Source: Eucommia ulmoides
Taxonomy: Eukaryota > Streptophyta > Magnoliopsida > Garryales > Eucommiaceae
Direction: 5' to 3'
NCBI GenBank assembly: GCA_016647705.1
Contig: CM028335.1
Coordinates: 20,686,905-20,750,904, forward strand
DNA: 64,000 bases
Below the pieces are notes generated by a model that saw only the letters and a list, made by a program, of their open reading frames with translations, did not search any database and was not told the DNA's origin. Positions 7,600 to 63,770 of the stretch are shown here, in pieces (position 1 is the stretch's first letter; every line of letters begins with the position of its first letter). Both the position numbers and the translations under genes were made by a program.

Positions 7600-7660
7600 A
7601 GTTAACGTTCACACAAGAATCAATAATCAATTTAGAACGTTAACGTTCACACAACAGATT
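7600..7660. repeat. Two GTTAACGTTCACACAA repeats beside the Copia 5' LTR
   Basis: Two copies of a unit containing GTTAACGTTCACACAA (7601 and 7640) lie just inside the element next to its 5' LTR. They are variants of the palindrome found in the LTRs, so the motif also occupies the untranslated leader. Confidence 0.6.
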
Positions 7661-7725
7661 ATGTACGTAAATGTTTACTTATTTATCTTAAAATTTCAGA
7701 ATAAAAATTGAATCTGCTTTAAGAT

Positions 7726-27717: not shown

Positions 27718-29235
27718 TGTTGGCCCAGTGAGCTACCCAAGAGAAAGAGTGAATTGGGTATATATAAAAATTTAAACAAATTTAATTCTTTTCAACACTT
27801 AATAAATCAAATGATCAATTTATCTTAAATCAATTATAATCTTAGTTACGCAGCGGATAAGTTTATTTAATAAAAGTTCACACCCAAACAAAATGTAAAC
27901 AAATTAAACAATGCAGCACACCAAGATATATCCTAGTTCAACAAGCTAACATTGCCTAATCCAGTCCCCCGAGCTCCACGGACATTCATACCCTCTAAAT
28001 CCCTGATTCCTTTAATGGTTGAAACCAAACCTTCACAATGATTATTTTCACACGCTAAGAATCGACCTTTACAATTTCCTTTTCCCAAGCTGAGGAAGAT
28101 CCTTATCTTTTTGTAGGTTAAAGACTAACCTAATTTTATTATAGGGAGAATCACAACCTAATCCTTTTAACAGGCTAAGATTCAAACCTCATAAACTCTC
28201 CAAGTATCATTTTCACCGATAAGGATGAAATCATTATAAATCACTCACAACTAATTCTATTCAGGGAGAATTAACACCTAATTCTTTTCAAAGGAAAAGA
28301 ATAACCTAACATTTTTATACTCTAGGCAAAGATCAAACCTCAATAACTTTCATGAAAAATATTGAAACCCTAACAATCCTGACTAGATACAGCTCAACCG
28401 TATATAATCCGCATAAAACTCCCCAATTAGAAACATAATGAGTTTCTTCTCACTCAGAGCTTCTACCACCTCAAAACAATTAAACTCGATTAATGTCCCA
28501 AAATTTACTAGTGATAGAATTTAAGTGAGGAATTCAATATCTGATTATATCAAGTGTGGGTAACATAAAATTAAACATGTAATCAGATAATCACAAAATT
28601 ATTTTTTAAAAAAGATTTTTACGCTTTTTAAGTTTGAAAATCCAAGCAATCAATAATAATATGAAATCAAATATAAGAACTCTTAAATTGGAAAGTTCTC
28701 ACCAGAAAAAAAAAACATAAATAATCTAATCAAAATTGTAAGACAACACAGATCGGTGATGCAAACTCAATAGCACTTTAAGCCAAGAACTTTTTCACAC
28801 AATAATCTCATGAATAATCTCTCGAATAAATCTTAGAATAATATCTCTTAGAAAAGATTAGGAACTTGATAGTTAATGATGGTGTGATGTATTAGATCTT
28901 AAAATTCGTAGGTCTATTTAAGTTGATTTGAAACATGCCCTCTAACGATTAGTTTCCTCAAGATAGACTTCTAAAAGGAACCTATAGACCGCGAATATCA
29001 TAACCATTCAATCCTGGTATAATTCACTCAACTATTGCTTTTACAATTCTCAATTAGGTCCTCAAATTATTTCTCGTTTACTAATAGAATAAATAAGAAG
29101 TATTTAATGAACCAAATTGAAAACCATTGTAATTATATGTACCATATCTATAGAGATATCAAAATAGATGTGTTATATCTTAAATATATTTAAATTTCTA
29201 AAATATCTCAATCAGATATGCCAAAAACGGCTAAT

Positions 29236-30731
29236 TGTACGCTGAGGTTTTTATGCTCACGTTTGACTCACTCGCAAGTGCACGAGGTCAAGTTTTAGAA
29301 TAGTGGATCTTTAAGATCGGGTATCGCTCCACTGGGAAACGTATTTGAATAATTGAATACTGTAATTGACATAGTGTTATATTATCTCGACTTTTCAAGA
29401 ATTGTTTGAAATTTAATTACAACTAAGTTAAACTAATACTATTTGGTTAGTTCTAATTACATGGATTACCTAGGAATTGATTTCATTCACTTAATACATG
29501 TTTGACTTCGTTTAGTTAACAATAACGGTGTTTATCCTATCCAACAATCTCTGTATCTTAAACTCATTCACTCTCTCTTTCAATTGTTTAGTGAATGAAT
29601 ATGTGACTTCGCATTAATGCCAAAATCCCCCTCGAACGTCTTTTTGAACACATAGTCACATGAGTCTTGAGCCAACGTCATGGATTGTAAACTTTCTAAC
29701 GCCATCCCGGGTCGTTAGAACGTCGCGATGTGTTTAACCCTAGTCCAAATCTGAGGTTACCTCTCCCGAGTGTAAAAAATCCCGTATTCTGAAAACTAAC
29801 CCTAATATATTGACAAGCATATTAAAATTGTAATAAAATGGTAAACACAATCGGATTTAGACAAATAACCATTAAGGTAACATATATTCAACCAAACGAG
29901 TATTTACATGAATTACAACAACTCCTAGATAATATCTATCTAATCTGCATTATCTTAGCCATATAACTATTAAAAGAAAAGGGATTCAACATCATTAGAT
30001 ATGGAAAAGTAATTACAAAGATAAAAACAAAGGAAGAACGATCAAATCTGAGAGTGGAATAGCCCACAGTCGCCAAGGATTGGTCTGCAAATACTTCGTC
30101 TTCTCAAATGATGAACCTTCTCTTTGAGCTCTCAAGAATGGCTAAAAGATCACTTCTCAAGTGTGGGAACGTTCTTTACAATTGTGGGAACAAAATCCTT
30201 AAGTACAAGGGTTGAAAAGATCTAGAAAATATATTTTTTCTGTTGTAGAGTGACCTTCGCGATGGTGAGGATCACCGTTGCAGCGGTGGGTATGTCGGCA
30301 AGCTCACTATTGCAGCGGTAAATTTGACCGCTATGGCGGTGAGCTAAAATCTGAACTCACTGGACTTTCACCACTATGGCGGTATATTTGACCGCTGCGG
30401 CAATGGGTCTTCACAATTTTCCCTGCATCTCCACCGCCATAGTGGGGATTTGACCGCTGCAACGGTGGGACTTGTGATCAATTAGCCTTCTCTGCATTCT
30501 CACCGCCACGGCGGTAGATTTGACCGTTGCGGTGGTGGCTTTCTATCTTGAACACTTGTATTTTTCATCGTTTCTTCGTTTTTTTCTCACCGTTTTTGCT
30601 CGTTTATTGTTCATTCACGTTCCTACACTTGATTTACATAAAAACACACTAAAACACAATTAAATATTACTAATTTACTCAAAAACTACCGAATTTGGCT
30701 TAGAAGTAGATAGGTATATTTCAACCTATCA
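29236..30731. mobile_element. Solo LTR (1.5 kb) of a second family, nested
   Basis: The sequence runs TGTACGCTGAGG ... AACCTATCA. It sits inside the Copia LTR and is flanked by CTAAT (29231-29235) and CTAGT (30732-30736), a 5-bp target duplication with one mismatch. The homologous Copia LTR at about 36970 is uninterrupted at this point. The same LTR family forms the fused pair at 45823-48816 and fragments at 38490 and 41440. Shared landmarks are CGCAAGTGCACGAGGTCAAG near one end and CCCCCTCGAACG internally. No internal region is present. It contains a palindrome array (30250-30545). Confidence 0.8.
30250..30545. repeat. Array of near-palindromes ACCGC-N4-GCGGT
   Basis: About nine copies of a 14-bp near-palindrome, such as ACCGCTATGGCGGT (30330) and ACCGCCACGGCGGT (30502), lie within 300 bp of the solo LTR. 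Several come in pairs joined by a short A/T-rich spacer (AAATTTG, TATATTTG, GGATTTG, AGATTTG). Confidence 0.85.
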
Positions 30732-30779
30732 CTAGTAACAGCTAGTATTTAATCAGATTATTAAAATCCTCGAAATCTA

Positions 30780-31100
30780 AACTAGACAATCGGTTGACCG
30801 AACACAAGCCCATCGGTTGATCAATTGATTCAGCATGTAAGCTAGGCCAGCCCTTAAAGGACAATTGGTTAACCGACCCATCAATGGTTGGTTGATTAAT
30901 CTATTCAGATTAAATTTCCAAGCCAAAATCTAGCCCTATTCGGTTGATCGATCCCGTCACGATCGATTGACCGTTCAATTCATAGAGTTTCACTTGGCAA
31001 TTCGGTTGACCGATCTCTCCTGGTCGGCTAATTGATCAATTCAGAGAGTTCTCATTTTCCAGCCTATGCCACTCGGTTGACCGAACCCCTTCTGGTCAGT
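30780..31100. repeat. Array of TCGGTTGACCGA near-palindromes, left LTR
   Basis: Eight or more copies or variants of CGGTTGACCGA lie in about 320 bp of the Copia LTR. The matching array of the other LTR is at 37020-37375. Confidence 0.85.
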
Positions 31101-31949
31101 TGACCAAATACTGCTGGAACATCCTCTTTTCAACTTATTTTAACTCCAAACTTCAACGTTTAATCTCGTTAACGAATTTCTTTTCTCGGTTAACATAATT
31201 AACACTAATATTTAATTTTAAACATTAATCTCAATTAGGTTAACTTTCATTTTTCAATTTCTCATCGAAGCAAATAATTAAACACTAATTAGGATCTTAA
31301 TTTCATCAAATTACATACACATAAATGTAACTTATTATTCAGTGTCGTGTGTATTCCTAATTCGGGATACGTTAAGGGTAAAAGAGTGTTTGAGTTGTTT
31401 TCACCTAATTTCTTCGGAATCTTCAACACTCTCCATTTCTTCAACATTTGTCTTTGTGTTCTTGATAATTAGTTCATGATCTAATCTTTAATGGAACTTA
31501 TTATACTGAAACAATCAACAAATACATTAGTTCCACAAAAATATCAACTCTTAATTGTCCATCAATACCTCGGCGTCAACAATCTTCCCTTTTTTGATGA
31601 TGACAATTAACTTTTATGTTTTCATCAAAAATAAAAAAATGTAAGCTAGGACGGGTATTTAACTTATTGAAGCACAATCATAAAGATCATTCAAATAACT
31701 CATTAGATATTTAATAGAACACAATTTGATCAATTCAACGACAAAGATATTCAATAAAGCATAATATGATCAATTCACCATAGTTCTATATTTTATCGAT
31801 GCAATGCTTAGGCGAACAAAGTTTAAAGCTCAATAATGAAATTCCATTTATATTTCCCCCTTTGCCAATCAATTCAATTCAATAAATATCAAATATATTC
31901 TACCCATTTGTCATCTCAAAAAGTGGGGAAGGGGAATAAAAAACATTAC

Positions 31950-33833
31950 TCTAGGCAAACTTATTATGCCTAGCCATACCTAAACCTCAAATAATTTTCA
32001 TAAACTGATCTTCCGCTAAAGGTTTGGTAAATATATCGGCAAGCTGATAAGAGGTATCAATTTATTCAATAGTAACATCCATTTTCTGAATATGATCACG
32101 AATAAAATAATGTCTAATCTCAATGTGCTTAGTTTATGAGTACTGTGTAGGATTCTTACTTAAATATATAGCACTTTTATTGTCACAATAAATAGGCACT
32201 TCCTCCATACACACTCCAAAATCATTCATTTATTACTTAATATATAAAATTTGAGCACAATAATTGCCAGTTTCCATATACTTAGCCACAGTAGTAGATA
32301 AGGCTATGGAATTCCGTTTCTTGCTAAACCAAGAAGCTAAGACATGTCCTAAAAAGTAACATGTCTCGCTTGTGCTTTTACCCTCCACTTTGCATCCAGC
32401 AAAATCAGCGTCAGAGTAACTAATTAGCTTGAAGTCACTCTATTTAGGATACCATAATTCTAGGTCAGTCGTCCCTTTCAAATATCGAAAGATTCGTTTA
32501 ACCGTGGTTAAATGCGATTCTTTAAGACAAGACTGAAATCTAGCACACAAGCAAACACTAAACATATTATCAGGTCTACTAGTAGTAAGATACAACAAGA
32601 TGCCAATCATACCTCGATACAATTTCTTATTTACGTTTTTGCCTGTATCGTCTAAGTCTATTTTGTAGCTATTGCCATGTGAGTATTGTATTCTTTAGCC
32701 CAATCCAAGCCATACATTTTGTGTAACTCTTTGGTTTATTTGGCTTGGTTTATAAAGATCTCTTCTTTGTTTTACTTGATTTGCAACCAAAGGAAGAAAG
32801 TCAACCCTCCCATCATACTCATTATAAATTCGACCTACATTATCTTGGCAAACTCTTGGCAAAAATCGTCATTAGTAGATCTAAAAACAATATCATCAAC
32901 TTAAATTTGTACTAATAGGATATCAAAATCAATTTTCTTGATAAATAATGTTATGTCACTAATACCCCTTCGAAAACCATTTTCACTGAAATAACGCCTA
33001 AGTTTCTCATACCAAGCTTGCAGAGCTTGTTTGAGCCCATACAAATCCTTTCAAAGTTTAAACACGTGATCGGGAAGTTTATCACTCTCAAATCCCGAAG
33101 GTTCAACATAAACTTCTTCTTCTAGAAAGCTATTCAAGACTGCACTCTTTACATCCATTTGATATAATTTAAAATTACGCAAACATGCAAATGCGAGTAA
33201 CATTCTAATAGCCTCTAATCTAGCCCAGGTACATAAGTCTCATCATAATCAATTCTCTTTTCTTGATCATAGCCTTGTGCAACTAATCTTGCTTTATTTC
33301 TAATTACCATGCCAGTTTCATCATTTTTATTACAAAAAACCCATTTAGTACTAATCACATGATGAAAGTCCGGTCTAGGAACTAGAGACCGCACTTTATT
33401 ATGTTCAAATTTAACAAATTCTTCTTGCATCGCAGAGATCCAATATCTCTTTCACATTCTTAGGCTCAATTTGAGTTAGAAAAGAAAGATTTATAATATC
33501 TCTAAAGGAGGAATGTGTACTTACACCTCTTTCAAAATTACCATTGATTTCTTGTTCCACATCTATCTTTATAGCTTGCGGTAACGTAAAATCCTCTTCC
33601 ATAGGCTTCTCTTTTTGATGTTCCTTTGTTTTACCATCACCTCAGTTTTGGCTATTCATATTACCTGCATCATCATCATCATCCAAAATCTTTCCCGACA
33701 TAAATGGATCGGACTCTTCAAATACAACATGCATAGATTCTTCAACTACTAACTTACGTTTATTATAAACTCTATAAATTTTACTTTTAGTAGTATATAC
33801 AAAAAAAAATACCATAGTCAGATTTAGCATCAA
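31950..33833 (-). pseudogene. pol: Copia integrase C-terminus, reverse transcriptase and RNase H remnants
   Basis: Pieces in order on the minus strand are: YRVYNKRKLVVEESMHVVFE with an acidic tail (integrase C-terminal region, 33833); MQEEFVKFEHNKV, TKWVFCNKNDETG and RNKARLVAQGY (RT start, 33430); LYGLKQALQAWYEKL (about 33000); QI-stop-VDDIVF (32901); and YRGMIGILLYLTTSRPDNMF with VKRIFRYLKGT (32622). The stop codon at 32901-32903 replaces the Tyr of the YVDD catalytic box. This is the SIRE-like sequence type. It is clearly non-functional. Confidence 0.82.
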
Positions 33834-33909
33834 ATTTACCTAGATTATACTTTTCATTCAAAATAAAACATTTACAACCAAAATTTATAAGATAAAAGGA
33901 TATAAAGAA

Positions 33910-33943
<34 letters not shown>

Positions 33944-34689
33944 CTTTGCTTCAAAAAATTGATTCTCATTCTGTATTGTTTTGTTCTCCTGCTGAAGCAC
34001 TTTTGTTTTTTCTTTCCACAATACCATTGTTGTGGCGCTCTTGGGAATATTCTTTATCACACACATGACTATCATCTTTAGGTGTAAAATACGTGATTTC
34101 AATGTTAATATCTTGTCGCATGCTAAGAACAACCTTTTCCTAAGATTGATTTGTACTTTTACATAGATATTTCTAGAATAACCTACAAGAAGCACTTCAA
34201 AAAATTCCTAGGTGGTACCCAATCTACATGGGTCCAATTTTTATAGTCGAATTCTCCTTTGTTCCTTTAGGAATCCATACCTGCTCACATTTAGATCTCT
34301 TTAAAAAAATCATTCACTAGAGGTATGCTGCACAATATTACAGTTAAAACATTTCACAACTTTTTTAGTTTCAGAAAAGAATTTTTCAAATTTCTTTTGC
34401 TTGACATTTTTCTGAAAATCAAGACCGGCTTTGTTGAAAACACATTTAGAGTTTCCCAAAAGCATTTTGAAATTATTTTCACAATTTATAAACTAGAAAA
34501 CAATAGAATCTAAATCCATCACTTTGGACATCAACTCATTGTTTTGCTTTTCTAAATCACACGAAGCCTTTTTCGAAATTGATATTTAAGATCGGTGTTT
34601 TCGGCCTCAAAACTTTCAATGCGTTTATTTAATGTAATCACTGTATTTTGTAAGACATCAAATTGTGAACATTAATTCTTATAATCGTG

Positions 34690-35546
34690 TCATAATTCTT
34701 GAATGATACAAAACAATTCATCAAAATCCAAAGGACAAGAACTAGAGCATTTAATTACCTCAACCACTTTAGCAATAAGAGCAAATGTTAGAGTTACCTC
34801 ATTATCAATTAATAATTCAAAATTGCTGGAATCCGTATCATCCCATATTTCTTTTGCAGATCTGTCTTTCATTTTTTGTTTTCTTTTTTTATCCAACCTC
34901 ATACTATCGCATAGCTATCTTGTGGGTCAATAAATCACCGATGAGTTCATCGGTAGTGAGTTTGTTAAGATCTTTGACCTTCTTGATTACATTCTATTTT
35001 TTATTCCCAGATCTTAGGTAACGATATCAAGATCTTTTGTATTTTTCACTTCATGTAGCACGACTTTCCAAGCTGATCAAGATTGTCGCATATGTTAGTG
35101 TACCTTATAGACATTTACGAGTTGTTTTCTGCATTACTCATTTTGAACACTTTGAATTGGTGAATGTAGACATTGATTATGAATAGATTTACTTGATTAG
35201 TTCCCTTGTATATGTCTTTCAATGTATCCCATGTTTCTTTTGCAGAAACACAACTTGAAACTTTGTTGTACTCGTTTGCATCTAAAGAAAAAAGCAAAAT
35301 GTTAATAGCTTGAGAGTTAATAGATGATTTCCTTTTATCAAAGGAAATCAGTTGCTCCTTTCTCTTAGCTACTCGATTTTCTATGGGAATGTATAGACCA
35401 TCTTCAATAACCATCCATGCCTCATAGTTAGTTGCCTGCAAAAGTCCAATTATTCTGTTCTTACAAAAGGCATAATTACTACTTGTAAATAGCGGTGGAT
35501 GGTGCATAGAAAGCTCCTCACCTAGTGTGTCGATTGGGTGCGCCAT
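34690..35546 (-). pseudogene. gag: Copia gag remnant, right copy
   Basis: A 143-residue open frame starts MAHPIDTLGEELSMHHPPLF at 35546 and contains NYEAWMVIEDG, QAINILLFSLDANEYNKVSS, SAKETWDTLKDIYKGTNQV and ending FKMSNAENNS. This is the N-terminal half of a plant Copia gag. The start is well placed, just downstream of the primer site. The C-terminal part, about 34902-34690 in another frame, has the acidic Ser/Asp stretch usual before the zinc knuckle, but no knuckle follows. Confidence 0.82.
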
Positions 35547-35604
35547 GTGATCTTTATTAGCTAGTGTTTTAAGCTAAACGAGTTAAACCAGCTCTAGAAC
35601 CAAT

Positions 35605-37825
35605 TGTTGGCCCAGTGAGCTACCCAAGAGATGGGGTGAATTGGTTATATATAAAAATCTAAACAAATATAATTCTTTTCAACACTTACTAAATCAAATA
35701 ATCATTTTTTCTTAAATAAATTTTTATCTTAGTTACGCAGCAGATAAGTTTATTTAATATAAGTGCACACCCAAACAAAATGTAAAGAAATTAAATAATG
35801 CAGCAAACCAAGATATATTCTGATTCAGCAAGCTAACCTTGCCTGATCCAGTCCCCTGAGATCCACAGAGTCATAACCTAGTCCTTTTAACAGGCTATGA
35901 TTCAAACCTCACAAACTCTCCAAGTATCATTTTCACCGGTAAGGATGGAACCGCTACAAATCACTCACAATTAATTCTATTTTGGAAGAATTAACACTTA
36001 ATTCTTTTCAAGAGAAAAGAATAATCTAACCTTTCTATATTCTAGGCAAAGATCGAACGACAATCTTTTTCCCAAAAAATATTGAAACCCCAGCAACCCT
36101 GACTAGATACAACCCAAAGATATATAATCCACACAAAACTCCCCAATTAGAAAAATAATAAGTTTTTTCCCACTCGGAGATTCTACCACCTCAAAACAAT
36201 TAAACTCGATTAATGTCCCAAAATTTATTAGTGATAGAATTTAAGTGAAAAATTCAATATTTGATTATATCAAGTGTGAGTAGCATAAAATTAAGCACGT
36301 AATCAAATAATCACAAAATTATTTTTTTAAAAAGATTTTTATGGTTTTTAAGTTTAAAAAAAAAAATTACGACGATCTTAAATCCAAGTAATCAATAATA
36401 ACATGAAATCAAATATAAAGACAATAAATTGAAAAGTTCTCACCAAGAAAACACAGAAAGAATCTAATCAGAATATCATGACGTCACAGATCAGTAACGT
36501 AAACTCAACAGCACTTTAATCCAAGAACGTTTTCACAAAATAATCTCACGAATGATCTCTCGAATAAATTTTAGAATAATATCTATTAGAAAAGCTCTGG
36601 AACTTGATAGTTATTGATGGTGTGATGTATTAGATCTTAAAATTCGTAGGTCTATTTAAGTTGATTTGAAACAGGCCCTCCAACGGTTAGTTTCCTCAAG
36701 ATAGGCCTCTAAAAGGCACCTATAGAACCTATATCTCATAACCATTCAATCCTGGTATAATTCACCCAAATATGGCTTTTAATACTCTTAATTAAGTCCT
36801 CAAATTATTTCTCAAATTCTAATAGAATAGATAGGAAGTATTTAATGAACCAAATTTATAAACACTGCAATTAGATATACCATATCTATCGGGATATCAA
36901 AATAGATGTGTTATATCTTAAGTATATTCAAATCCCCAAAATATCTCAATCAAATTTGTCAAAAATGACTAGCAATGGTTAATATTTGATCAGATCCTTA
37001 AAATCCTCGAAATCTCAAAAGATAGTCGGTTGACCGAACACAAGCCCATCGGTTGACGGATTGATTCAGCATGTAAGCTGGGCCAGCCCTTAAATGTAGT
37101 CGGTTGATCGACCCATCAATGGTTGGTTGATCGATCAATTCAGGTTCAATTTCAAAACCAAAATCTAGCCTTAGTCGGTTGACCGATCTCACCATGGTCG
37201 GTTGACTGATCGATTCAGAGAGTTTCACTTGGCCAATTTAGTTGACTGATCTCTCCTGGTCGGTTGACCAATCAATTCAGAGAGTTCTCTTTTTCCAGCC
37301 TATGCCACTCGGTTGACCAAACCCCTTCTTGTCGGTTGACCGAACCCCTTCTGGTCGGTTAACCGAACACTGTTAGAACATTTCCTTTTCAACTTATTTC
37401 AACTCCAAGATTCAATGTTTAATCCTATTAACCGATTTCTTTTCTCGATTAACACAATTGATGCTAATATTCAATTTTAAACATTATTCTCACTTAGGTC
37501 AATTTTCATTTTTCAATTTCTCATTGGAGCAAATAATTGAACACTAATTAGGATCTTAATTTCATTAAATTAAACACACATAAATATAACTTATTATTTA
37601 GTGTTGTGTGTGATCCTAATTTAGGATACATTAAAAGTAAAAGAGTGTTTGAGTTGTTTTCACCAAATTTATTCGGAATCTTCAACACTCTTCATTTCTT
37701 AAAGCGTCCTTGATAATTACATCATGATTTAATTTTGAATGGAACTTCTTATACTGAAACACTCAACAAATACGTTAGTTCCACAAAAAAACACTTAGTT
37801 GTCCATTAAAATCTCGGGATCAACA
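35605..37825 (-). repeat. Right LTR (5' LTR) of the SIRE-like Copia array
   Basis: The 2221-bp LTR runs TGTTGGCCCAGTGAGC ... GATCAACA. It is colinear with 27718-31581, apart from the nested insertion there and a deletion of about 150 bp near 35870. The signature CCCAAGAGATGGGGTGAATTGG near the start is typical of plant SIRE-like LTRs. Confidence 0.85.
37020..37375. repeat. Array of TCGGTTGACCGA near-palindromes, right LTR
   Basis: Ten or so copies or variants of CGGTTGACCGA are separated by 15-45 bp, at the position equivalent to 30780-31100. The extra copy CGGTTGACCGAACCCCTTCT near 37333 is a local duplication absent from the other LTR. Confidence 0.85.
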
Positions 37826-37888
37826 ATGTTTGATTTATTATTCTTAACAAAGAAATTGGCCACATTGTGGCCCATTTCTTGCTTGGTG

Positions 37889-42894: not shown

Positions 42895-44315
42895 TGTTGT
42901 CGACAAAAACGTTTTGTGTCTAGTTCTAAATTTACTCGCAAGCACATGAATTAGTTGTAGCAAAGATTAATGGTAGCAAGGTAGATCCTACGAAGATTTC
43001 TATCAAAGGAAAAATACTTAATCCGTTCAAGTTAATTTAATTATAATCTAGTTCAAAATGGTTTTGTTTTAAAAAAAAATTCAAAATAAATTAAAATGAT
43101 ATTGAATAAAATAAGAAATACATAGTAAAATAAATAAGAAAAATTCATAACCACGTTAGGAATTGTGGGTTTGGTATTTTGGGCATTATGTCGTTTTTGT
43201 ATTTTTACCGTTAACTTGGATTTGTGCAAACGAGCATTCACAACCTTAAGCCGGAACTATTTAGAAAGATCATATTGATTATTCTCAAGCATGATATATC
43301 TTCAATATTTAATTCTTACGTTACTCTAATTTAGGGTGAATTAAAATGGAGGAATAAACCATCAAGTTTATTAATTAATCTCTGTGAATACTATTGTATG
43401 ACCTTTAGATTTAGACCACAAGTTCTAAATCTAACAAAACAATTGAATGAATTTAGAATCAAAATTTCGACAAGAACCTTTTGAAATAAATCCAATTATA
43501 AAATCGATTTCAAGAACAATATTCATCGTCACACAATTGTTTATATAGATCCAAAATTAAATTAAAAATAGAATATTACATAAACTCGACAATATAATGG
43601 CATAATCCTAATCTGATTGGAAGAAGTTATCCGCTCATCGTTGTGTAAAGTAGTGTTTTCTTAGAAACAATTCTTAAAAATACCGTTTTGCACTTTGTAC
43701 TCATAAGAATTCAAGTTTCCTCTTCTCCAAAATAAAAATAAAAATAAAGAAGAATAATGAAATATTTACAAAAATAGTGGCATTTGGTCTTAGGAAATGG
43801 TATGGAATTCTCTCTAACATCCAAGGATATTTTATAGGCATCCAAGATCAACTTTGGGGTGCTAATTGAGAAAAACATAATAGTTTGGGGTGCAATTTGT
43901 CAAGTGGTTGAACCTTCTAGGGTTTGTAGCCCACAGCCACGCACATTGCACAGCCAAGGAAATGGGCTCTCTCTGTTTACGGCTTCATTTTTTATCCGAT
44001 TTGCTCCAACTTAACACCATTTTGTTCCTTTTTCAAAAACTTACAAAAACATATAAAATGATTAAATTTTTTATATTTGAATCTGATCGAACGATTTATT
44101 CCGATTTCTTTGGTTTTTGTTCGGCTTTCGCTCGGCTTGTCGTGGTTTGCTCATTTTTTTTATCCAATTTACCCCCAACATAGCGTCGTTTTATTCCATT
44201 TTCAAAAATATGGAAAAACAACAAAAATAACTCTATTTATAATAATTTACTCTAATCGAATAATTAACAAAACTAAGTTTAGTGGTATAAAATCACATAA
44301 AATAAGGTGTGATCA
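42895..44315 (-). repeat. LTR A (3' LTR) of the tRNA-Asp-primed element
   Basis: The 1421-bp LTR runs TGTTGTCGAC ... GTGTGATCA. It contains ACTCGCAAGCACATGAATTAG and GTAGCAAAGATTAATGGTAGC, and is colinear with LTR B. On the minus strand it begins TGATCACACC straight after the polypurine tract. No insertions are present. Confidence 0.75.
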
Positions 44316-51520: not shown

Positions 51521-52751
51521 CACACAAATCAGTTGTAGCAAAGATTAGCGGAAGCAAGGTCGACCCCACGAGGATTGCTATCAGAGGGAAAACACTTAAT
51601 TCGTCCAAGTTAATTTAATTATAATCTAGTTCGAAATGATTTTGCTTTGATTTTTCAAAATAAATTAAAATGATATTAAATAAACGATAAAAAAAATAAG
51701 AAATTAAAATAGGGAACGAGATTAGAAATTGTGGGTTTCGTATTTTGGGCATTATGTCGTTTTCGTATTTTTTCCTTTAAATTGGATTCGTGCAAACGAG
51801 TGTTTCCAACCTTAAGCCTGAACTACTCAGAAATATCAGATTGATTATTCCCAAACATGATATATCTTCGATATTTAATTTTTACATTACTCTAATCTAA
51901 GGTGAATTAAAATTGAGGCATAAACCATCAAGTTTACTAATCTATCCATTTGAATACTATTGTATAACCCTTAAATTTAGCCCTCAAATACTAAATTTAA
52001 CGGAGCAATTGAATTTGGAGTCAAAATTTCGATAAAAACCTTTTGAAAATAAATCCAATTATAAATTCATTAATAAAATCGATTTCAAGAACACAATTCA
52101 TCGTCACACAATTGTTTGTGCAAATCCAAAATTAAATTAAAAATAGAATATCACATAAACTCAACAATACAATACCACAATCCTAACCTCATTGGAGGAA
52201 ATTAGCCGGTCATTGTTGTGCAAAACGGTGTTTTCTTGGAAACAATCCGCAAAAACACAGTTTTACACTTTCTACCCCTAAGAATTCAAGCTTCCTCTTC
52301 TCCAAAATAAAAATAAAATAAAACAAAGAATAAATAGAAATATTTACAAAATGGTCAAAAATGGTCTTAGGAATGATCCTAGAATGATATATAACATCCA
52401 AGGATATTTCTAGGCATGCAAAATCAACTTTGGGGTACTAATTGAGTAAAAAATGATGGTTTGGGGTGCAATTTGTCAAGTGGCTGAAACTTCTAGGGGT
52501 GCAGGCTATCAGGTGGATGAAGATCAAGTGGGTTGGCCATTTGGGTAGCCCACAATAGTGCATATTGCACGACTGGGGAAATGAAAAAGTTGGCTTCTCT
52601 CTCTGTTTGTAGCTCCGAAAGCGACGTAATGTGCAGCTTCATGAGCAGCGAACTGCTCCACTTCTTTCGGCTTCTATTCAGCTTATTGTGATTTGCTGAT
52701 TTTTTTATCCGATTTGCTTTATTTAATGCCATTTTGTTCCTTTTTCAAAAA

Positions 52752-52980
52752 GTTGTCAAGAACGTAGAGGAAGTAGGATGGGCAGTTGATCAAATCTAGT
52801 ATGGATCGTATATGGACAGTGGTTGGAGTCGACGACCTTCCCAGGGTTCCCAGAGGAGGGATCTCTTGGGAAGTTGACCCTTGCGAACAACTTGATGCAC
52901 TATCTCCCTTCAACCCTTTGAGCGAAATGCAGAAAAAAAGAAGAAAACTCCATGGACCGACCCCATCATTTCCACCCCTA
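52752..52980 (+). pseudogene. Coding-like insert in LTR B (possible captured gene fragment)
   Basis: About 230 bp present in LTR B and absent from LTR A, with higher GC than the LTR. The + strand is open across it: SMDRIWTVVGVDDLPRVPRG, ISWEVDPCEQLDAL, SPFNPLSEMQKKRRKLHG. A WEVDP core followed by a proline-rich, basic stretch recalls the segment after the DNA-binding region of auxin response factors. The resemblance is only suggestive, and I would not name it on this alone. It ends where LTR homology resumes (CAAAAACATA). Confidence 0.35.
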
Positions 52981-53242
52981 CAAAAACATAAAATAATTCA
53001 ATTTTTTATATTTGAATCTGAACGAATGATTTATTCTAGTTTCTTCAGTTTTTGTTCAGCTTTTATTCGATTTGCCATGGTTTGCTCGTTTTTTATCTGA
53101 TTTACCCCAGCTTAACCCCATTTTATTCCATTTTCAAAAACATAGAAAGACAACTAAAATAATTCTATTTATAATAATTTGCTCTAATCGAACGATTAAC
53201 AAAACTAAATTTAGCGGTATAAAATTACAAAAAATGCAGTGT

Positions 53243-53726: not shown

Positions 53727-54138
53727 CGTGTTTAATATCGTTTTTGGGTTTTTCGGAGTTGTTACAACGTTTTTCGAAGTTGGATGTTCGAGGTTGGCGA
53801 TGAACGAATGCCCATTTGTGAAGGATGTACGCTCCTGAGGTAACGTGAGCAGCACATTAACGTTAATGTACTGGGTTTGTATTTTGTGCATCACGACGTA
53901 ATAACAATGTCAATATAACAAACACAGTCAGGGTGTTTAATATCGTTTTTTGGGTTTTTCGTCGGTGTTACAATGTTTTTCGAAATTGGATGTTGGGGGG
54001 GTGGCGATGAATGATTGCCCATTTGTGAGGAATGTACGCTATGAGATAACGTGAGCAATGCGTTAACGTTAACGTACTTTGTGGTTATTTTGTGTATGAC
54101 GACGTAATAATAATGTGGATACAAGCAAACACAGTCAG
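53727..54138. repeat. Tandem duplication (2 x about 206 bp) upstream of the transposase
   Basis: Copies at 53727-53932 and 53933-54138 share GTGTTTAATATCGTTTTT, TGCCCATTTGTGA, GTACGCT and AACACAGTCAGG. Each holds one palindrome: CATTAACGTTAATG at 53855 and GCGTTAACGTTAACGT at 54060. A further diverged pair follows at 54139-54430 with three palindrome copies. Confidence 0.8.
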
Positions 54139-54850
54139 GAAATGGGTGTACATGGTAAAGTTAAATAACTCACAATTTTTCAGCTTTTTTCTAAAAAGTA
54201 AGATGCTCCAAGATACAGAGGTTCTCTGGGTTGTATACAACGAAACGCCTTAACGTTAACATGTTTTAACTGTAACTTTTTTTTTTTGCGTTAACGTTAA
54301 CGTAATGCTTGTAAACGGTAAAGTTAGTTAACTCACAGTTTTTTCAGTTTTTTCCCGAAAAATAAGATGCTACAAACTACAGAGGAACTCGGTTGTATTC
54401 AATAAAACGGGGTAACGTTAACATGTTTTTAATAAGCTGCTACTTTCGTGTTAACGGTAACATTAACGCATTAAGTAATGCATTAACGTTTTTACACAAT
54501 CAGTAGTGCTGGATTGCGTTAACGTTAACGCAATAAGTAATGCATTTAACGGTAACACATTAAGTTAATGCATCAACGGTGACGTTTCACAATGGTCAAC
54601 CCACGAACTGATTGCGTTAACGTTAACGTAATCAAGTCGATTTCGTTAATGTTTACGCAATAAGTATAAGCGCTCAACTAGAACAATTTTGGGGATGCAT
54701 TTTTTTTTATTTCACACGTTATACGTTAACGGTTACGCAATTAATATAAGTGCTTGACCAGAGTAACGCAGCGTTAACGTTAATGTAACCCCTGTTTTTT
54801 TACAAGTCAATTTGATTGCGTTAATATTTACGCAATTAGTAGTAAGCGCG
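54040..54850. repeat. Palindrome cluster in the transposase 5' region
   Basis: Exact GTTAACGTTAAC cores start at 54062, 54290, 54518 and 54616. Ten or more variants, such as GTTAACGGTAAC and GTTAATGTTTAC, are interspersed. The cluster stops before the first coding exon. Confidence 0.9.
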
Positions 54851-54974
54851 CTTACAGACCAATAAGCATACTGAAATCTAAATCCCCCCGATGCCCATTA
54901 ATGTTTGTCTACTGTTTTTTTCTTGCACAATGGGTTTGCATCCGTTTGATGTTGCAGATTTACTGGGGGGGTCA

Positions 54975-57387
54975 ATGGCTACGCGCATATTTTTGATGTG
55001 CAAGTTTGATGGTTACTCGTTGGGCGTTAAGGTGGATGATGATTTCACACAAGCGGTTCTAATTCAAAATGTGTTGTCGCGATGGGACGTGTTGAGGGAT
55101 GTTTCGTTCGAGATGTTTTATTCCATACCAGGACATGACAGGTGCCTAATATTGTGTCAGGATGACGTAGAGGTAATGGTTAGCCTTGCACGAGCAATGA
55201 AGCTTGAATATGTAGGGGTGGAGATAAAGGTGTGCGGCAGCGGTAGTGGACCAAGTGGCAGTCGGGACAGGATGTTATTTGAATATCCAACGGGATAGAG
55301 GGCGGGATGGCATGGACAGGGAGGACGACCTGTTGTCCGTTTTCTACCCATTGCATAAAAAGGCATTATTGTCCGATCATTGGGCTGAAGGTCTTAAAGA
55401 AGCCGGGCAGATTTTTAAGGGTGGAATACCGGAATTTAGAGAATCACTAAGAAAATATGCTGTACAAATGGGTTTCACATTTCAGTACATAAAGAACGAC
55501 AAGAAGAGGATGACAGCTGAATGTTCACTCAAGGAGGAGAGGGAATGCAAATGGAGAGTGCATGGCAGGCTAGACGAAAGGAATGGGTTTTTTTATATTT
55601 GGGAGTTCCAGGGAAATCATAGTTGCGGTGTTGTTTACAGGACAGCGAGGAATGAGAAGATGAACTGTAGCGTTGTGAAGTCATGTCTTTTAGACTTAGT
55701 TCGGAATACCCCGTTAACTCGCCTAATTGACGTTGTTCACACGTTCAAGAACGACTATGGGATTGAGATCCTATATCACATTGCATGGAACGGCGTGGAA
55801 AAAGCTCGGGATGATTGGCGACCACGAATCGTCTTATGATCAATTGCGCTGGTACTTGGATGCATGTAGTCAGACGAACCCAGGCAGCCACCTGGCGTTG
55901 GATTTTGAAAAAGAATCTGGGCATTTCAAGAGGCTGTTTGTATCGTTCTATGCGACTGCGCACGGGTTCAAATTCTGCAGGCCGATGCTGTTTCTAGACG
56001 GGACATTTCTGGGGGGTAGGTACAAGGGGTGTTTGTTGGCGGCCAGCGCAAAGGATGGAAACAATGGTAAATTGGTTGACTACTTATTACATAAACGCAA
56101 TTACACCTATCGTTTACACATTACATGCAATTAACACTTTCTTCTTTCTTTTTTTTACATTTTTTTCGAACAGTTTGTGTGAGAGGGGGGGTTTCTGATG
56201 AGACAAGCTGATCATGTTTGGGGATGAGACATAGAAATTTTTGCAATGTTAACGTTAAATGCGTTAACGTTAACGCATTTAAAACGGCTGTGTATACAAT
56301 GTTTTTTTCATAGTGTGCTGATCTGTTTTGTGTTTTTCGTAAATGGACAGGTCTTTTCCCGGTTGCATTCGCTGTTGTTGATGCGGAGAACAATGACAAC
56401 TCGTATTGGTTCATGACCAATTTAGAAAAAATTGTGGTGAAAGAACGTGTGCTAACCTTCATTTCTGATCAACATAGTGGCATTCTTGAAGGGGTCCGGA
56501 AGATGTTCCCGCATTGTTTTCATTCTTATTGCTTGAACCACCTGAAGAACAATCTAAGGGACAAATTGGCAGGTTTGAAACAGGCGTGGAAGGAGAAGCT
56601 CGTGCACAAATATTCGATGATGGCATATGCGACGATGCTTGACAAATACTACCAGCTGAGGGAAGAATTAAGAACAGAAGGTATGGGACGAGTAGAGAAT
56701 TTCCTAGAGGATGTGCCGCCAGACAACTTCTGCAACATGTTTTTCAAAGGTAAAAGATATGGGGAGATGTCATCCAACCTAGCGGAGTCATTCAACGCAT
56801 GGATTCGTGATTACCGGCACCTGCCGATCATATTAATGGTCGACAAGATTAGGTGCAAGGTAATGAACCAGTTGTCAGTGAGACGTGCCGAATCACTGCT
56901 GATGACGGGTTTCCTATGCCCAGTACGCGATAAAATGTTGTCGCGGATGATAAGCGACGGGCGGACGTGGAATGTTGTTGAGTGCGGCAACAGCGTATAC
57001 GAAGTGCACTCGATCCCATCCGTTCTGGTTGATGTGGATAAAAAAAAGTGCTCCTGCTTCGGGTGGCAGGGAAATAGGTTCCCGTGTGTTCATGTTTGTG
57101 CGGCAATACAAAAAAGCGGCCAGAATATACATTCATCCGTTGAGTCGTTTTTCATGGTGGAATATTACCGAATGACCTACTCGGAAGGTATATATGGTGT
57201 ACCCACGTTTGAGAAACCGGAATGGAATGCATCGGAAGCTGTAATTATCCCGCCGATCACAAAAAAACAACCTGGTCGACCGCGGAAGAAACGCATCCTA
57301 TCAAGGGGTGAGATCCCAGAAATAAGATGTGGTAGATGCAAAAAGAATGGGCACCACAACAGGAAGACATGCACTGCTTCAATTTAA
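54975..57387 (+). pseudogene. MuDR-type MULE transposase, one intron, two frameshifts
   Basis: I choose the start at 54975 (MATRIFLMCKFDGYSLGV), after a possible acceptor at 54956. Order: a PB1-like N-terminus; the MuDR N-terminal domain (FKGGIPEFRESLRKYAVQMG, CKWRVHGRLDERNGFFYIW, HSCGVV); the MULE DDE domain; SWIM zinc finger CSCFGWQGNRFPCVHVCA; GRPRKKR basic patch; CCHC-like knuckle CGRCKKNGHHNRKTC. Catalytic residues are present: D in FLDGTF, D in ISDQHSG, E in NLAESFNAW, plus the CFHSYCLNHL zinc motif. One intron, 56067-56350 (AATG|GTAAAT ... GGACAG|GTC), joins in frame. Frameshifts near 55270-55325 and at about 55812 (one extra G restores the family reading) break the gene. The protein would cut and rejoin element ends. 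Confidence 0.88.
56067..56350 (+). other. Transposase intron containing palindromes
   Basis: The GT...AG intron of 284 bp lies between the first catalytic Asp region and the rest of the DDE domain. It contains GCGTTAACGTTAACGC at 56261 and a truncated copy (GTTAACGTTAAA) at 56248. None occurs in the flanking exons. Confidence 0.8.
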
Positions 57388-58617
57388 AGCACAGAGTAAT
57401 CAAATATTTCCTTTTATGTAGTTTTTACACAGCAACACTTTATGTGTTTAATGTCAGGGGGGTGGAACCTCGTTTTTTTTTCACGCGATGTTTTTGTTTT
57501 GCGTAAACAGGTAATAAACACACACAAACTTTTTTTTGTGTTAACGTAAACGCAATTCCGATTCACACATTTTAATGTTCAACGCTTTTCATAATTCTTT
57601 TGTATAGAATTAATCGCGTCAACGTTAACGCATTTACAACCAAAAAAACTCAAAATAATTAATCGCGTAAACATTAACGCATTTTTCATTACAAACCAGC
57701 ATTAGCAAAATACAACTACGTTAACGTTAACGTGAACGAAAATTACAGCAGGGAAGTAAGTAATTGCGTTAACGTTAACACCGTAAGGAAACCATCACAT
57801 GTAATTTTATTGCGTTAACGTCACAGCAAATACTAACCAGTAACAAAGTCAAAGGCAACGCAATTAAGGTCATTTCGTTAACGGTAATACATTTTTTTAA
57901 TAAATATTGTTCCACCAGACAAACAAACTAACCAAATCTGAACATTAACTAATCTAGACTACATTTGTTCTTGCGTTAACGTTAACACAGTAAGGAAACC
58001 ATCACATGTAACTTTATTGCATTAAAGTCACGGCAAAAACAATCCAGTAACAAAGTCAAAGGCAACGCAATTAAGGTTATTTCGTCAACGGTAACACATT
58101 TCTTTAATAAAAATTGTTCCACCAGACCAACAAACTAACCAAAATTGAACATTAACCAATCTAGTTAACGTTAACGCAGTTTTTAAAAGACCAGAATAAA
58201 ACAATTTCAATTTGTGAGTTAACGTTAACGTGCAACAAAGTACAAATTGGATTAAAGTTAATTGATTAACAAAACTAGCCATTTAACATACTTGCGTTAA
58301 CGTTAACACAACTAAAACCCAGCAACAAAAGACAAAGCAACGCAATTAAGGTCCTTTTCGTTAACGGTAACACATTTTTTAGTAAAAATTGTTCAACCAG
58401 ACCAACAAACTAAACCAAATCTAAACATTAACTAAGCCCATTAACGTTAACGCGTTTGGTCACAGCCAGCACATGTAAAATTACAAATTGTGTTAACAAT
58501 TAACACAATTAAAAACCCCACACACGCACCAACAATCGCAAAAAATGAATAAATCAGTGGGATATATACATTTTCTCAGATTTTTGTTTTGTGTCATTGA
58601 TAAACTCCACCCATAGG
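57388..58617. repeat. Intergenic tandem repeats between the convergent genes, palindrome-rich
   Basis: Units with GCGTTAACGTTAACACNG, AAGGAAACCATCACATGTAA, GGCAACGCAATTAAGGT and CCACCAGACNAACAAACTA start at 57766 and 57973 (207-bp period), with a partial third from 58294. Exact GTTAACGTTAAC cores start at 57720, 57768, 57975, 58164, 58218 and 58296. Both genes end at the borders, so polyadenylation signals of both must lie here, but I cannot single them out. Confidence 0.85.
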
Positions 58618-59091
58618 TCAGGGGGTGCCCTCATCTGGTTGGGTTGTTTCAACACCGGCGCCCACCACGGGCACCCAACTGTAGTGCGGATGGTTGAGTA
58701 GAGCGTGTATTACGTCTCTCCGGACACCCCGTACATTTGCCACCGACAGTTTTTTCGCGACGGGCATATTTGCAGCATATTGTTTCATGATATACATAAC
58801 AAAAACACCACAATCAGTCCTGCAAACCCAGGGGGGAAGGTAAACAGATGAGAATGATATATTTACAAATACATACGACTTTTTAGTACACATGTTTCGG
58901 ACGGGTGAACTTACGCCCCGCGTTGTTGTGGTGAATCGACACATTGTTCGATACGTGCGTCACCCCAATCTGGACGTATTTCCATGTTGATATGTCGTTC
59001 CACAAACCTTTTCTGTTCAGAATTTAGGTTAGTCAAACAAAACAGAGTGTAGTTAGAGACAATCAAAGTAGTCACATGTTAAATCACATAC

Positions 59092-59331
59092 CACCGTAAG
59101 CGCATCATTATAATAATGATCGGTCGTGTTCTTTCTAGGATGGATGGAATTGTAGAACGTCCATTTTTTATCATGTATGTCCAACACCATTACAGTCCAG
59201 TGATTGGGTGACGCATGTCGAACGTAAGTGTTCATCGGGAACACAACATAACGGGTTTTTTTGCTGAATGCGCTGGAGATTGTGTAGTACAGGTCTTTCA
59301 GCAGCACATTGTTGTCCTCCCTTATAACATT
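59092..59331 (-). other. Exon 7 of the Ulp1-like gene: catalytic histidine region
   Basis: The 80-codon exon (TAG|AATGTT ... ACGGTG|GTATG) encodes YYTISSAF, TRYVVFPMNTYVR, NHWTVMVLDIHDKKW and FYNSI. The HW pair is the C48 catalytic histidine. The usual acidic residue of the Y-D-S-L motif is Asn here, which would weaken catalysis unless this subfamily tolerates it. Confidence 0.75.
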
Positions 59332-59524
59332 CTATGATTTTTTCTTTTACGTGTTAGCAAGTTTGGATGAAAAAGGAATAAAAGCTAACATGTGCTAAAG
59401 TGTCTTACCCAAATGCATGATAGCGCAAACCGCATTTCGTGCAACAGCACAATTGACGTGGACATCCACTCGCGATTGATTGATCTAATTTGGTCTTCCA
59501 AACACTCTCCATATGAATCAATCA

Positions 59525-59664
59525 CTTGTGAGTAAAGGGAGGGGGAAAGACAGACACGTTAACGTTAACGCAAATTTTGTTAACACAGGCACATTTTTTA
59601 CTAAACAAGTTGATGTAATCAGTTAATCAAGTCAATCACAAACACTATGCAGTCGGTTTCATAC
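59525..59664 (-). other. Intron 5 of the Ulp1-like gene with one palindrome
   Basis: GTTAACGTTAACGC starts at 59558. It is the only exact copy within the short introns; the others lie in the long introns and gaps. Confidence 0.7.
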
Positions 59665-59859
59665 GTTATCCGACACACGTCGCTCCATAATCATGCAAAT
59701 GATGTCGCCACATGAAACCGTGGCCATGGGTTTCCCACCTCCAAACACGAATGTACTGGGACATTGTCAAAAACAACATATCACATGATCAGCAAACATT
59801 TTATGGAAAAAGGAATTTCAAAAGTAAAAAGGCACTTTGAGTAATTTTTTATTTTTTAC

Positions 59860-61154
59860 CCTGGCCCCTCTTTGGAAATCACAGACAACTTCTCCCAATC
59901 GTTGTCAACAAGCATCGCACCAACGGTCGTCGAATCACGAGCTGGGAGTACTGCATTGTCTTCATACATTGTTGCCGGGTGGAGCTCATCGACATTAACT
60001 ATGTCAGCTCTCTCTTTCTGCTTCCCTTTCTCTTTTGCTTTGGGGTAGACAAAATCACTGCCTTGTTTCTTCGGTTGCCTCTCCTTTTTCTTTACTCGAC
60101 CAACCATAGAGCTAACTTTTTGCGTTGCCCCCTCATGCGACGTAGGTATAGGGACTGGCGACGGCGCATTGGGGGTGTCGGTCGGCATGACCATAGAGAG
60201 CGGTTGAGGTTCTTGAGGTTCGCGAACTGCGAGAGTGGTAGGGGTACCCCTACCCCCTGTTTGCATGTGGGCGTTCAATTTTGTCTGGAGGTCCTGTATT
60301 TGTTTATTCAGCGCCACACGCATTTTTACGTCTGATTTGGCTATCTCCTTCTTCTCTTGCCTCAGTAGGTTGTTGATTTCTTGTTCTGCTTTCAAGTCAA
60401 GAGCAAGATCATTATATTTCTTCTTCATTTCGCCAGCAGTATCAGCATGTTGCTGATTCAACATTTCGATTGTGTTTTTAAGTGTTTACACCTCCCGGGC
60501 GAGCTCGTCACATCTCCGCCTAAGGTCATCTTTTTCTGTATCGACGGCGGGCTCTTTATACTTCTGAGTCACGTCGTGCACGCTCATTTCTGTCAGGATG
60601 TCTCTCTTCTCCCCAATTGATTTCGCTAATCTCGCAGAGAGATTAGAGACAGAACGCTCATAACTTTCTTTTTCTTTCAACGACGATGCTTTCAGATGAT
60701 CAATCTCATTTTTCTGCTCGACGTTGGCAGCGGTTATGATTGCAATCACCCTATGTAACGCTGCAATGGTCTGCTCTTTTTCCATTTTATTCGCATCGAA
60801 CTCACCCTGCATGTGTTCGATCTGTCTGCAGATGTCATCAACTGTACCTGCGGACACAGACGGTGGCTCCAAGGCACCTGCTGAAGGTGTGCAAAATGCA
60901 CTCTCAGCGGGGGCAGAATCATCACCCAAATCGGTTGCGGCTTGAGTTGGGACGGGAGAAGGATGATATATGAGGGGTGCGAGATACCGCCCTATGATGT
61001 CGTCAACCATTGCATCACAGTCATCATCAGCAGCAGCGTCTGTATCTCCGCCCTCATTGCCCGAGCTATCGTTAATTGAGTCATTACTATCCTCTTTCAA
61101 AGCAATCCCCATTTAAAGCTCCGCTAAAGTCTCATCAGCGGGCTGATCTTTCAC
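59860..61154 (-). other. Exon 4 of the Ulp1-like gene: acidic, coiled-coil and basic regions
   Basis: About 430 codons in one frame with two stops (61115-61113 and 60488-60486), otherwise uninterrupted. It starts VKDQPADETLAEL and then an Asp-rich stretch (GGDTDAAADDDCDAMVDDII). Heptads follow from CRQIEHMQGEF to LQTKLNAHM, about 200 residues of predicted coiled coil. A Pro-rich linker and a Lys-rich motif (VGRVKKKERQPKKQ, KAKEKGKQKE) that could bind nucleic acid or act as a nuclear signal complete it. The donor G|GTAAAAAAT leads in phase to exon 5. Confidence 0.7.
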
Positions 61155-61624
61155 CTGGCATATATGCAAGCATTAACGTTAACCAACCATACACACACAC
61201 ACACACACACCCAAAACAACTAACCGATTGCATTTACATTAAAGTTAAATTGCTTGCGTTAACGTTAAACATAAGCACAAAAACCAACAAATAAGTTTGC
61301 TAATGCTAACGCAAATAATAATCCAGCCACAACATCTGCTTTTTGTTATTGCGTTAACGTTAACGCACTTATTATTTGCGTTAACGTTAACGCAAATATT
61401 TATATGCTTAACATTAACGCATATAAATAATTGCGTTAACGTTAACGCAAATACTAAGTGCGTTAACGTTAACGCTAACGCAATAACACTCTAACCATAC
61501 ATAACTTAGTTTGCTTTAACGTTAACGCAACAACTAATTGCGTTAACCATAACGCAAAATACCACATACCATGTTTTACGTACCTGCATCAACGTTAAAA
61601 TCACAACATATTTTTTTTGTTTAC
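61155..61624 (-). repeat. Intron 3 of the Ulp1-like gene, densest palindrome cluster
   Basis: Exact cores start at 61353, 61380, 61435 and 61462, and all four have the full 16-bp GCGTTAACGTTAACGC. Variants lie at 61171, 61258, 61410, 61516 and 61540. A (CA)n tract lies at 61190-61210. Palindromes make up a large share of 61350-61480. Confidence 0.9.
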
Positions 61625-62565
61625 CTTATCAGGTGGCAGTAGACCGAGGGGAATGCCTCCCAAGTTGGAAGAAAACGTGGTAAGGCACCACCACTCCAAA
61701 CGCGGCACACTATGCTCCCTACCCTCGGTGTGGTCAACCAACGTTGTGTGCTCGCACAACCAATACTGTAAGTAAAATTTGTAATATGTCAAGCACGGTC
61801 CACAAACAACGCTTGTAAATATTTGAAAAACGTTTTTCACAATGGGTATGTGTATACCTGGAGAGCAAGCACGCACCCCGTGACCGACCGGGGTTCCATG
61901 TACGATTTCTTGAGGCCGGTTTCGAGATCTGTAAATATTGCAGCTGTCCAGTTGTAATTTGTCATGTCTTCAATTGTTTCAACATAGCGAACCAACGATT
62001 TCTGGACCTGCTGCCCAGTTGTCGCAAAGAAGCACGTGGTCATCAGGTGTAGAATAACCATGCGGACAACATCCTGCACTGTTTCATTGTCCGTGGCATT
62101 GACATTCGCTTGCACTTGTGATCTCAAATAAGAAACACTAAACCCACGGTCTGCGAACATCAGTCTCGACATGAAGGGGGAGTCGGATTTTGTGTAACGA
62201 CTCAAAACAATGGGTTCTTCGCCCGTTGATATCCCGAATATCAGCTGGATGTCAAGCGGGGTTATCCGGATGAGCCTGCCCCTATCCTAAACCCCCCCCC
62301 CCCCCCCCGCCCCACCCCGCGTGCAGGGTTGTAGCATCGGATGATCATTTCAATGAGATCATCCTTTTTGTGGACGTTTTCGAGCATCACTCGCTGCTCA
62401 TATAATGTCTCGAATATTTTTGCGAACGGGTCCGGGCCAGCAGTGTCTTATGCCGATCGTTGAGTTTGCACTCTTTCAGCAATTCATAGGTCTGCTTAAG
62501 GTTGGAGCGATAAAGGAATGTCCGTTGGCTCGAGCTTTCCTTTTTCGGTTTCTTTAGGAGTTTTA

Positions 62566-63465
62566 CTGCAAGAACGACGGGGGAAACACAATTAATGCAC
62601 ATTACAAGCCACACGTTAACGTTAAAACAGTCATCCATATCCCTCGTTACGTAACAAAAACTAGTAACTATTTTGCGTTAACGTTAACGCACAACAATAA
62701 ATGTGTTAACGTTAACGCATTTTTTTCAAAAACACAAAATTTCGCACCAAAACGGTCACCACCCTTTTTACAGGCAAAACGTCTATGTGCGTTAACATTA
62801 ACGCATTTTCATCCACGCGTTAACGTTAACGCAAGACGCAGCATATAGTGCTGCACCAGACAGACAAACAAACAAACCTAAATCTAAACACACAGACTCA
62901 AATTAATGTTAACGTTAAAGTAGTCATCCATATCACTCGGTACGTAACAAAAACAGGCAACTACTATGTTTCAATGTTAACGCACCACAATAAATGCGTT
63001 AACGTATACGCATTTTTCTCAACAAACCAGAACGTCGTCCTAGATTTGAGAAAAATACCGACGAGTAACGCAAAAGGGCCCCCCCTTTTTTACAGGCAAA
63101 TGTCTATTTGCGTTAACATTAACACAATCACATCAACGCGTTAACGTTAACGCAATCGAAGTACATAGTGGTGTACCAGGCAAACAAACAAACCTAAATC
63201 TAAACATACGACTCACATTAATGTTAACGTTAACGCAAGCATTCTTTTTAAATTCCTTCTTTTCGGAGGCAAAACAACATGTGGGTCAGCATCGCAACAC
63301 AATGAAACAAAACACGACGTACAATTTCAAAAAAAAAAGTAAACAGGGGAACAGAGTATGTCGGAGTTGGGTAAAATAGACGAACATCATCATCTCGCTT
63401 TGTGATTTTCATTTCTAAAACGCCGTCGCCCAACAAAATTGTATCGATTTTAGGGTTTCACATAC
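62566..63465 (-). repeat. Intron 1 of the Ulp1-like gene, tandemly duplicated and palindrome-rich
   Basis: Two copies of about 295 bp (from about 62612 and 62906) share GTCATCCATATC, ACGTAACAAAAAC, AATAAATG and CCAGACAG/CCAGGCAAACAAACAAACC. Exact cores start at 62677, 62705, 62819, 63140 and 63223. The equivalents of the first two in copy 2 are degraded (AATGTTAACGCAC, GCGTTAACGTATACGC). Splice sites: CCCGACG|GTATG and TTCTTGCAG|TAAAAC. Confidence 0.85.
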
Positions 63466-63529
63466 CGTCGGGACTGAGGATTGCTCGTTTCTGTGTGGAA
63501 GACGAGGGGGCGCATTCAAAATTCTCCAT

Positions 63530-63770
63530 TATCTGAAGACGATGGGGCGATTTTGGATTATTAGTTTTAGGGTTTTAGGGTTTCGGAGTTTTTAAGTGGG
63601 GAGAGGATAGAGAGTGTGGGAGAGAATAGAGAGCGTTTTGGCGATTTTTTGGTATGCGATCGTGCAGATAGTGGAACGTGTAACAGGACATATCGAAATC
63701 AGAACGGACGCAGTAACACGCCGACTGCTAACCGTGCGTTAACGTTAACGCAATCCGCTACTGTTAACAG
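63530..63770 (-). promoter_or_regulatory. Likely promoter/5' UTR of the Ulp1-like gene with a palindrome
   Basis: Upstream of the ATG at 63529 the minus strand shows a CT-rich leader (CTCTCTATTCTCTCCC near 63610) and AAACCCTAAAACCCTAAAAC, common in plant 5' UTRs. An exact GCGTTAACGTTAACGC lies at 63736-63751, about 210 bp before the start codon. No TATA box stands out. Confidence 0.45.

Follow-up and report, generated by a model that had tools for sequence, protein, structure and literature searches.

A CpG-bearing palindrome arrayed in the non-coding DNA of a Mutator-like element and shared with a Copia retrotransposon in Eucommia ulmoides

In a 64-kb stretch of the Eucommia ulmoides genome (contig CM028335.1 of assembly GCA_016647705.1, forward-strand positions 20,686,905 to 20,750,904; hereafter the window, numbered from its first nucleotide), the non-coding DNA of a Mutator-like element (MULE) is filled with copies of a palindrome that recurs in an unrelated Copia element. 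The best-kept part of the MULE sites is the central 12-mer GTTAACGTTAAC, which occurs exactly 26 times in the window, 22 times in the MULE (first at 54062, last at 63738) and four times in the Copia element (1793, 2337, 7991 and 8442). An initial annotation had listed the 22 MULE positions, each of which is an exact match, and had missed the four in Copia; it had also put the chance expectation far below one, in agreement with 100 dinucleotide shuffles in which GTTAACGTTAAC never appeared (mean 0.00, maximum 0), so that a chance origin of the cluster was rejected. The full 16-mer GCGTTAACGTTAACGC is present in 12 exact copies (10 in the MULE, two in the Copia long terminal repeats, LTRs), and 51 matches with at most three mismatches compare with 0.11 expected. 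When up to four mismatches were allowed, and overlapping registers were merged with the best one retained, 63 sites were obtained, 49 in the MULE, 12 in Copia (1630–9013) and two elsewhere (25239 and 33578, four mismatches each); the palindrome is thus a feature of the MULE, as had been claimed, and is not confined to it. A scan of the 12-mers of the window, low-complexity words excluded, placed the GTTAACGTTAAC family far ahead in local clustering. In viral contigs the 16-mer was found at background level only (15 contigs, one site each), and a literature search with exact and loose forms of the motif string, judged by title, showed nothing relevant among the papers listed. The reading that we favour, at about even chances, is that this MULE is a VANDAL/KIU-like element in which an extended form of the palindrome, TTGCGTTAACGTTAACGCAA, would be read by the protein of a Ulp1-carrying gene as a self-address that counters silencing, in the manner of the VANC proteins of Arabidopsis.

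The distribution of the sites follows the gene structure of the MULE. Exons were drawn by hand from open reading frames (ORFs), Pfam matches and splice signals, several borders being a few bases off the splice signal, and they divide the interval 53728–63752 (10,025 bases) into 5,200 coding and 4,825 non-coding bases. None of the 49 MULE sites lies in a drawn exon, where the closest match has five mismatches, and the avoidance of exons described in the initial annotation therefore holds for these hand-drawn exons. The plus-strand gene encodes a MuDR-type transposase, with matches to DBD_Tnp_Mut, MULE and SWIM that exceed the Pfam cut-offs. Twelve sites, four of them with the exact 12-mer, lie upstream of its ORF (53728–54930), a stretch that includes a 206-bp tandem duplication (53728–54139), and its GT...AG intron (56067–56350) holds one perfect 16-mer at 56261; exon 1 (54931–56066, DBD_Tnp_Mut and the start of the MULE domain) and exon 2 (56351–57387, MULE domain and SWIM zinc finger) are free of sites. 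Between the convergent genes (57388–58609) there are 14 sites, including six exact 12-mers, some of which fall in a 207-bp tandem duplication (57764–58164).

The second gene is on the minus strand. Its Ulp1 (Peptidase_C48) exons, within 58610–59770, have approximate borders at 58610–58830, 58912–59012, 59080–59340, 59410–59532 and 59663–59770 and carry no site; with the exon pieces joined, Peptidase_C48 scored 38.1 bits against a cut-off of 20.7, under which single exons remained (17.3 and 12.7 bits). A single site, at 59556, lies in an intron of this region (59533–59662). The coiled-coil exon (59859–61157) and a PMD/DUF1985-like exon with a weak match (61861–62572) are both free of sites, and the intron at 61158–61626 holds nine, four of them exact 12-mers, most at 27–28-bp steps between 61351 and 61555. 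Intron 1 (62573–63466) has 11 sites with five exact 12-mers, mostly in two diverged tandem copies, and a perfect site at 63736 lies upstream of the tentative first exon (63467–63529). Altogether 36 of the 49 sites are in introns or between the gene ends and the other 13 are in the two upstream stretches; five introns shorter than 100 bp contain none.

The sites have a defined size and symmetry. Across the 49 MULE copies a weaker preference continues past 16 bp, to TTGCGTTAACGTTAACGCAA, and its palindromic character reaches about 20 bp. GTTAAC occurs in the window as 49 single units and 26 doubles and never as three units in a row, which led us to reject a simple (GTTAAC)n microsatellite. This fixed two-unit length, together with the extent of the palindromic preference, is what would be expected of a symmetric binder, and the palindrome as such suggests that the binder is a dimer. 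Adjacent sites are 27–28 bp apart in nine of 48 intervals (1.04 expected; none of 2000 placements reached nine), a figure to be read with the minimum distance not enforced in the one 14-site segment of the null model and with some of the nine intervals stemming from a single tandem array.

Such arrays could also be the outcome of neutral spread through non-coding DNA, driven by gene conversion and tandem duplication, with insertions into exons being purged, an explanation that we consider distinctly improbable. Several sites do lie inside tandem duplications (repeats of 206, 207 and 27 bp), and in six comparisons between internal duplicates conservation at the sites did not clearly exceed that of the adjoining sequence. 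The exon-free pattern is explicable without special avoidance, as any insertions in exons would tend to be eliminated; two of the three reading frames of the 16-mer are open. Against neutral spread stand the missing triple units, the recurrence of the 16-mer in a Copia element that is unrelated and has no wider homology, and the diversity of the flanks: sorted by flank similarity at a threshold of 52%, the 49 sites fall into 28 groups, which makes it hard to derive every one of them from the duplication of long segments. Spread solely by segment duplication is therefore unlikely, with the limit that grouping at this threshold can miss diverged duplicates.

The old Copia element on the minus strand (1630–9013) is flanked immediately outside both ends by CAACC and has LTRs of ~1.3 kb each that are 88.9% identical. 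Its 12 sites comprise five in each LTR and two in the leader. In the 3′ LTR (1630–2939) three sites are arranged in 46-bp repeats (1791, 1837 and 1883) and two in 49-bp repeats (2286 and 2335), and the same arrangement is found in the 5′ LTR (7726–9013) at 7897, 7943 and 7989 and at 8391 and 8440, the last being a perfect 16-mer. The 5′ leader (7599–7652) has degenerate sites at 7599 (four mismatches) and 7637 (three mismatches), and the coding pieces (3524–7111; gag, pre-integrase region and reverse transcriptase) have none. A comparison of Copia with the MULE at E-values up to 0.01 gave only palindrome-centred matches of 21–24 bp, and the transfer of a larger piece between the two elements was rejected on this ground.

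In both elements the sites appear to have decayed in a particular way. CpG transitions make up 30 of 91 mismatches in the MULE sites and 17 of 33 in the Copia sites, and the preference for CpG holds among transitions alone (p = 0.002 and p = 0.017, respectively), in a test that takes the consensus as ancestral and the sites as independent; independence does not apply to the duplicated sites or to the pair of LTRs. Since the mismatches are preferentially CpG transitions, they suggest past methylation of the site CpGs in these copies, lending indirect support to the earlier proposal that the CpGs of the motif suit a methylation-linked role. In the alignment of the two LTRs 12 of 80 site positions differ, six of them at a CpG retained in one LTR, and four further differences are TG versus CA in the middle of the site, a pattern that decay of a single CpG on the two different strands would leave. 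From these differences it follows that Copia probably had better sites when it was inserted.

The anatomy of the MULE is that of the VANDAL elements, and it is on this likeness that the self-address reading rests. VANC21 binds YAGTATTAY within VANDAL21, in intronic, intergenic and terminal DNA, and induces loss of methylation; its sites are often in tandem repeats and were lacking in two exon probes tested, and VANC6 acts similarly through different motifs (Hosaka 2017, PMC5735166). VANC6 motifs are found, too, in AT9TSD1, an unrelated element whose methylation drops with VANC6 (PMC5735166), and the palindrome here likewise recurs in an unrelated Copia. According to a 2026 review (PMC13317346), a subset of VANC genes (KIU) includes Ulp1 and targets relatives in which the motif is present, and VANC action and host silencing meet in the same non-coding regions (Sasaki 2023, PMC10398659). 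VANDAL21 and VANDAL6 have a second gene of DUF1985 type, and the second gene of the MULE described here is a candidate for this type through a weak match; like VANDAL21, the MULE has a short motif that is dense in introns, intergenic and upstream or terminal non-coding DNA and lies partly in tandem repeats; and like KIU, for which motif recognition of its own non-coding DNA is described, it has a Ulp1 domain in a gene of putative VANC type. Binding and demethylation have been demonstrated for VANC21 and VANC6, and the MULE here is known from its sequence. By analogy, TTGCGTTAACGTTAACGCAA would be bound by a protein that intact family members encode, probably a dimer and most likely the PMD/DUF1985–coiled-coil–Ulp1 (VANC-like) protein; the dense arrays in introns, intergenic and upstream DNA would recruit it to family copies, where it may remove or block silencing marks, and the Copia element would be a second beneficiary bearing the same address. 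Both the identity of the binder and its action against methylation are what we infer from this likeness. The MULE half of the story is most likely another case of the published kind with an unusual target, the long CpG-bearing palindrome being a variant. As VANC genes that carry Ulp1 and have motifs of their own had already been reported (PMC13317346), the suggestion of a self-recognition code in a Ulp1-carrying MULE is not new; the layout matches the published VANC/VANDAL systems, and the presence of the palindrome in Copia speaks against strict self-recognition.

Several observations weigh against a VANC-like self-address. The published VANC motifs, YAGTATTAY and AGTTGTCC/AGTTGTAC, are 8–9 bp long and non-palindromic, and the VANC21 motifs all have one orientation (PMC5735166), in contrast to the 16–20-bp palindrome here. 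The domain matches in the exon that would encode part of the binder are under the Pfam cut-offs (DUF1985, 19.8 and 17.6 bits, E = 8.2e-4 and 3.9e-3, cut-off 35.1; PMD, 21.5 and 24.1 bits, E = 1.5e-4 and 2.5e-5, cut-off 34.9); a single-sequence fold of this exon was uninformative (pLDDT 38.7). Both genes look broken: exon 1 of the transposase has two apparent frameshifts, positioned by eye near 55290 and 55810, the coiled-coil exon has two in-frame stops, and the PMD/DUF1985-like exon has apparent frame changes near 62290 (in a homopolymer) and 62450, so that any binder encoded by the MULE would have to be supplied by a different copy, unless the system is defunct at this place. To these are added the sites in internal duplicates, with their lack of clear extra conservation, and those in the Copia LTRs, where LTR–LTR identity is lower at the sites than in the rest (0.85 vs 0.92). 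The sharing of the site with Copia is, moreover, explained equally well by a host factor. The frame change near 62290 coincides with a poly-C run at 62292–62308 (poly-G on the coding strand), which may reflect slippage in the element or a sequencing error.

It is very unlikely, in our view, that the sites are bound by the MULE transposase itself, whether in transposition or in demethylation. The transposase does have the MuDR DNA-binding domain, and the sites fill the introns and the middle of the element, whereas TnpA acts at element ends. TnpA and MURA are reported to be associated with lower methylation of their own elements, and MURA to act at terminal inverted repeats (TIRs) (PMC10398659). 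Copia would have no need of a MULE transposase. A search for TIRs and target sites found no TIR, only short chance-like matches, and did not locate the element ends, which may lie outside the window; degenerate or missing TIRs are described as a trait of VANDAL MULEs. A dispersed repeat, ~82% alike between 42943–44303 and 51521–53235, ends just to the left of the MULE, and its end at 53235 may mark the left boundary.

What the Copia sites do bring into play is a host transcription factor, or another host DNA-binding protein, whose site both elements would have gathered separately as an enhancer; we regard this as possible, if on balance doubtful. The site is common to two element classes that are unrelated, with homology limited to the palindrome and a few flanking bases, and in each LTR a TATA-like box follows the two sites of the 49-bp repeats, which lie 63 and 112 bp upstream of it. 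This recalls the Sirevirus LTRs, in which palindromes are clustered upstream of the TATA box (PMC2829016). A different palindrome-like array, of TCGGTTGACCGA, is present in another Copia-like repeat of the window, and taken together with the Sirevirus palindromes it suggests that the Copia sites may be enhancers for a host factor, on which the MULE may draw as well. However, the other three sites of each LTR are 339–432 bp downstream of the TATA-like box, the placement of the MULE sites, with 36 of 49 intronic or between gene ends and 13 upstream, is not a plain promoter pattern, and the Sirevirus CGG-CCG core (Tnd-1 excepted; PMC2829016) is missing from GCGTTAACGTTAACGC. In the available part of that source, no Sirevirus motif is reported as common to a DNA transposon.

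Alternatively, Copia may have acquired the anti-silencing address of the MULE, in which case a protein of the MULE family would de-silence Copia too, a cross-class piracy that we consider unlikely. A literature search of limited scope, which covered its sources in part, turned up no case in which the anti-silencing motif of a MULE is reported from an LTR retrotransposon.

Other features of the window include a duplicated Copia-like region (25868–31586 and 33648–37830, ~5.7 and 4.2 kb, collinear and 82–86% alike), in which Copia gag is matched at 35118–35573. Its TCGGTTGACCGA copies, often 23 bp apart, account for 19 of the 20 matches in the window at up to two mismatches (nine at 30790–31197, ten at 37026–37366) and resemble the CGGT..ACCG palindromes of Sireviruses. 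TCGGTYRACCGA has 20 matches in the window against 3.6 expected. A minus-strand ORF at 10800–11255 with an F-box-associated domain is likely a piece of a host gene.

The surprising part is that the palindrome is common to a MULE and a Copia LTR, be it through code piracy or through one host factor. If a MULE protein binds the site, the anti-silencing code would extend to a long palindromic, CpG-bearing target with a directly testable binder. Should Copia rely on this code as well, sequence-specific anti-silencing would not be restricted to the element encoding the protein. Transposons with no relation to one another could then become mobile jointly, and it would be necessary to qualify the proposal that damage to the host is limited by specificity. 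Should both elements be bound by a host factor instead, the window would show different transposons converging on one host site.

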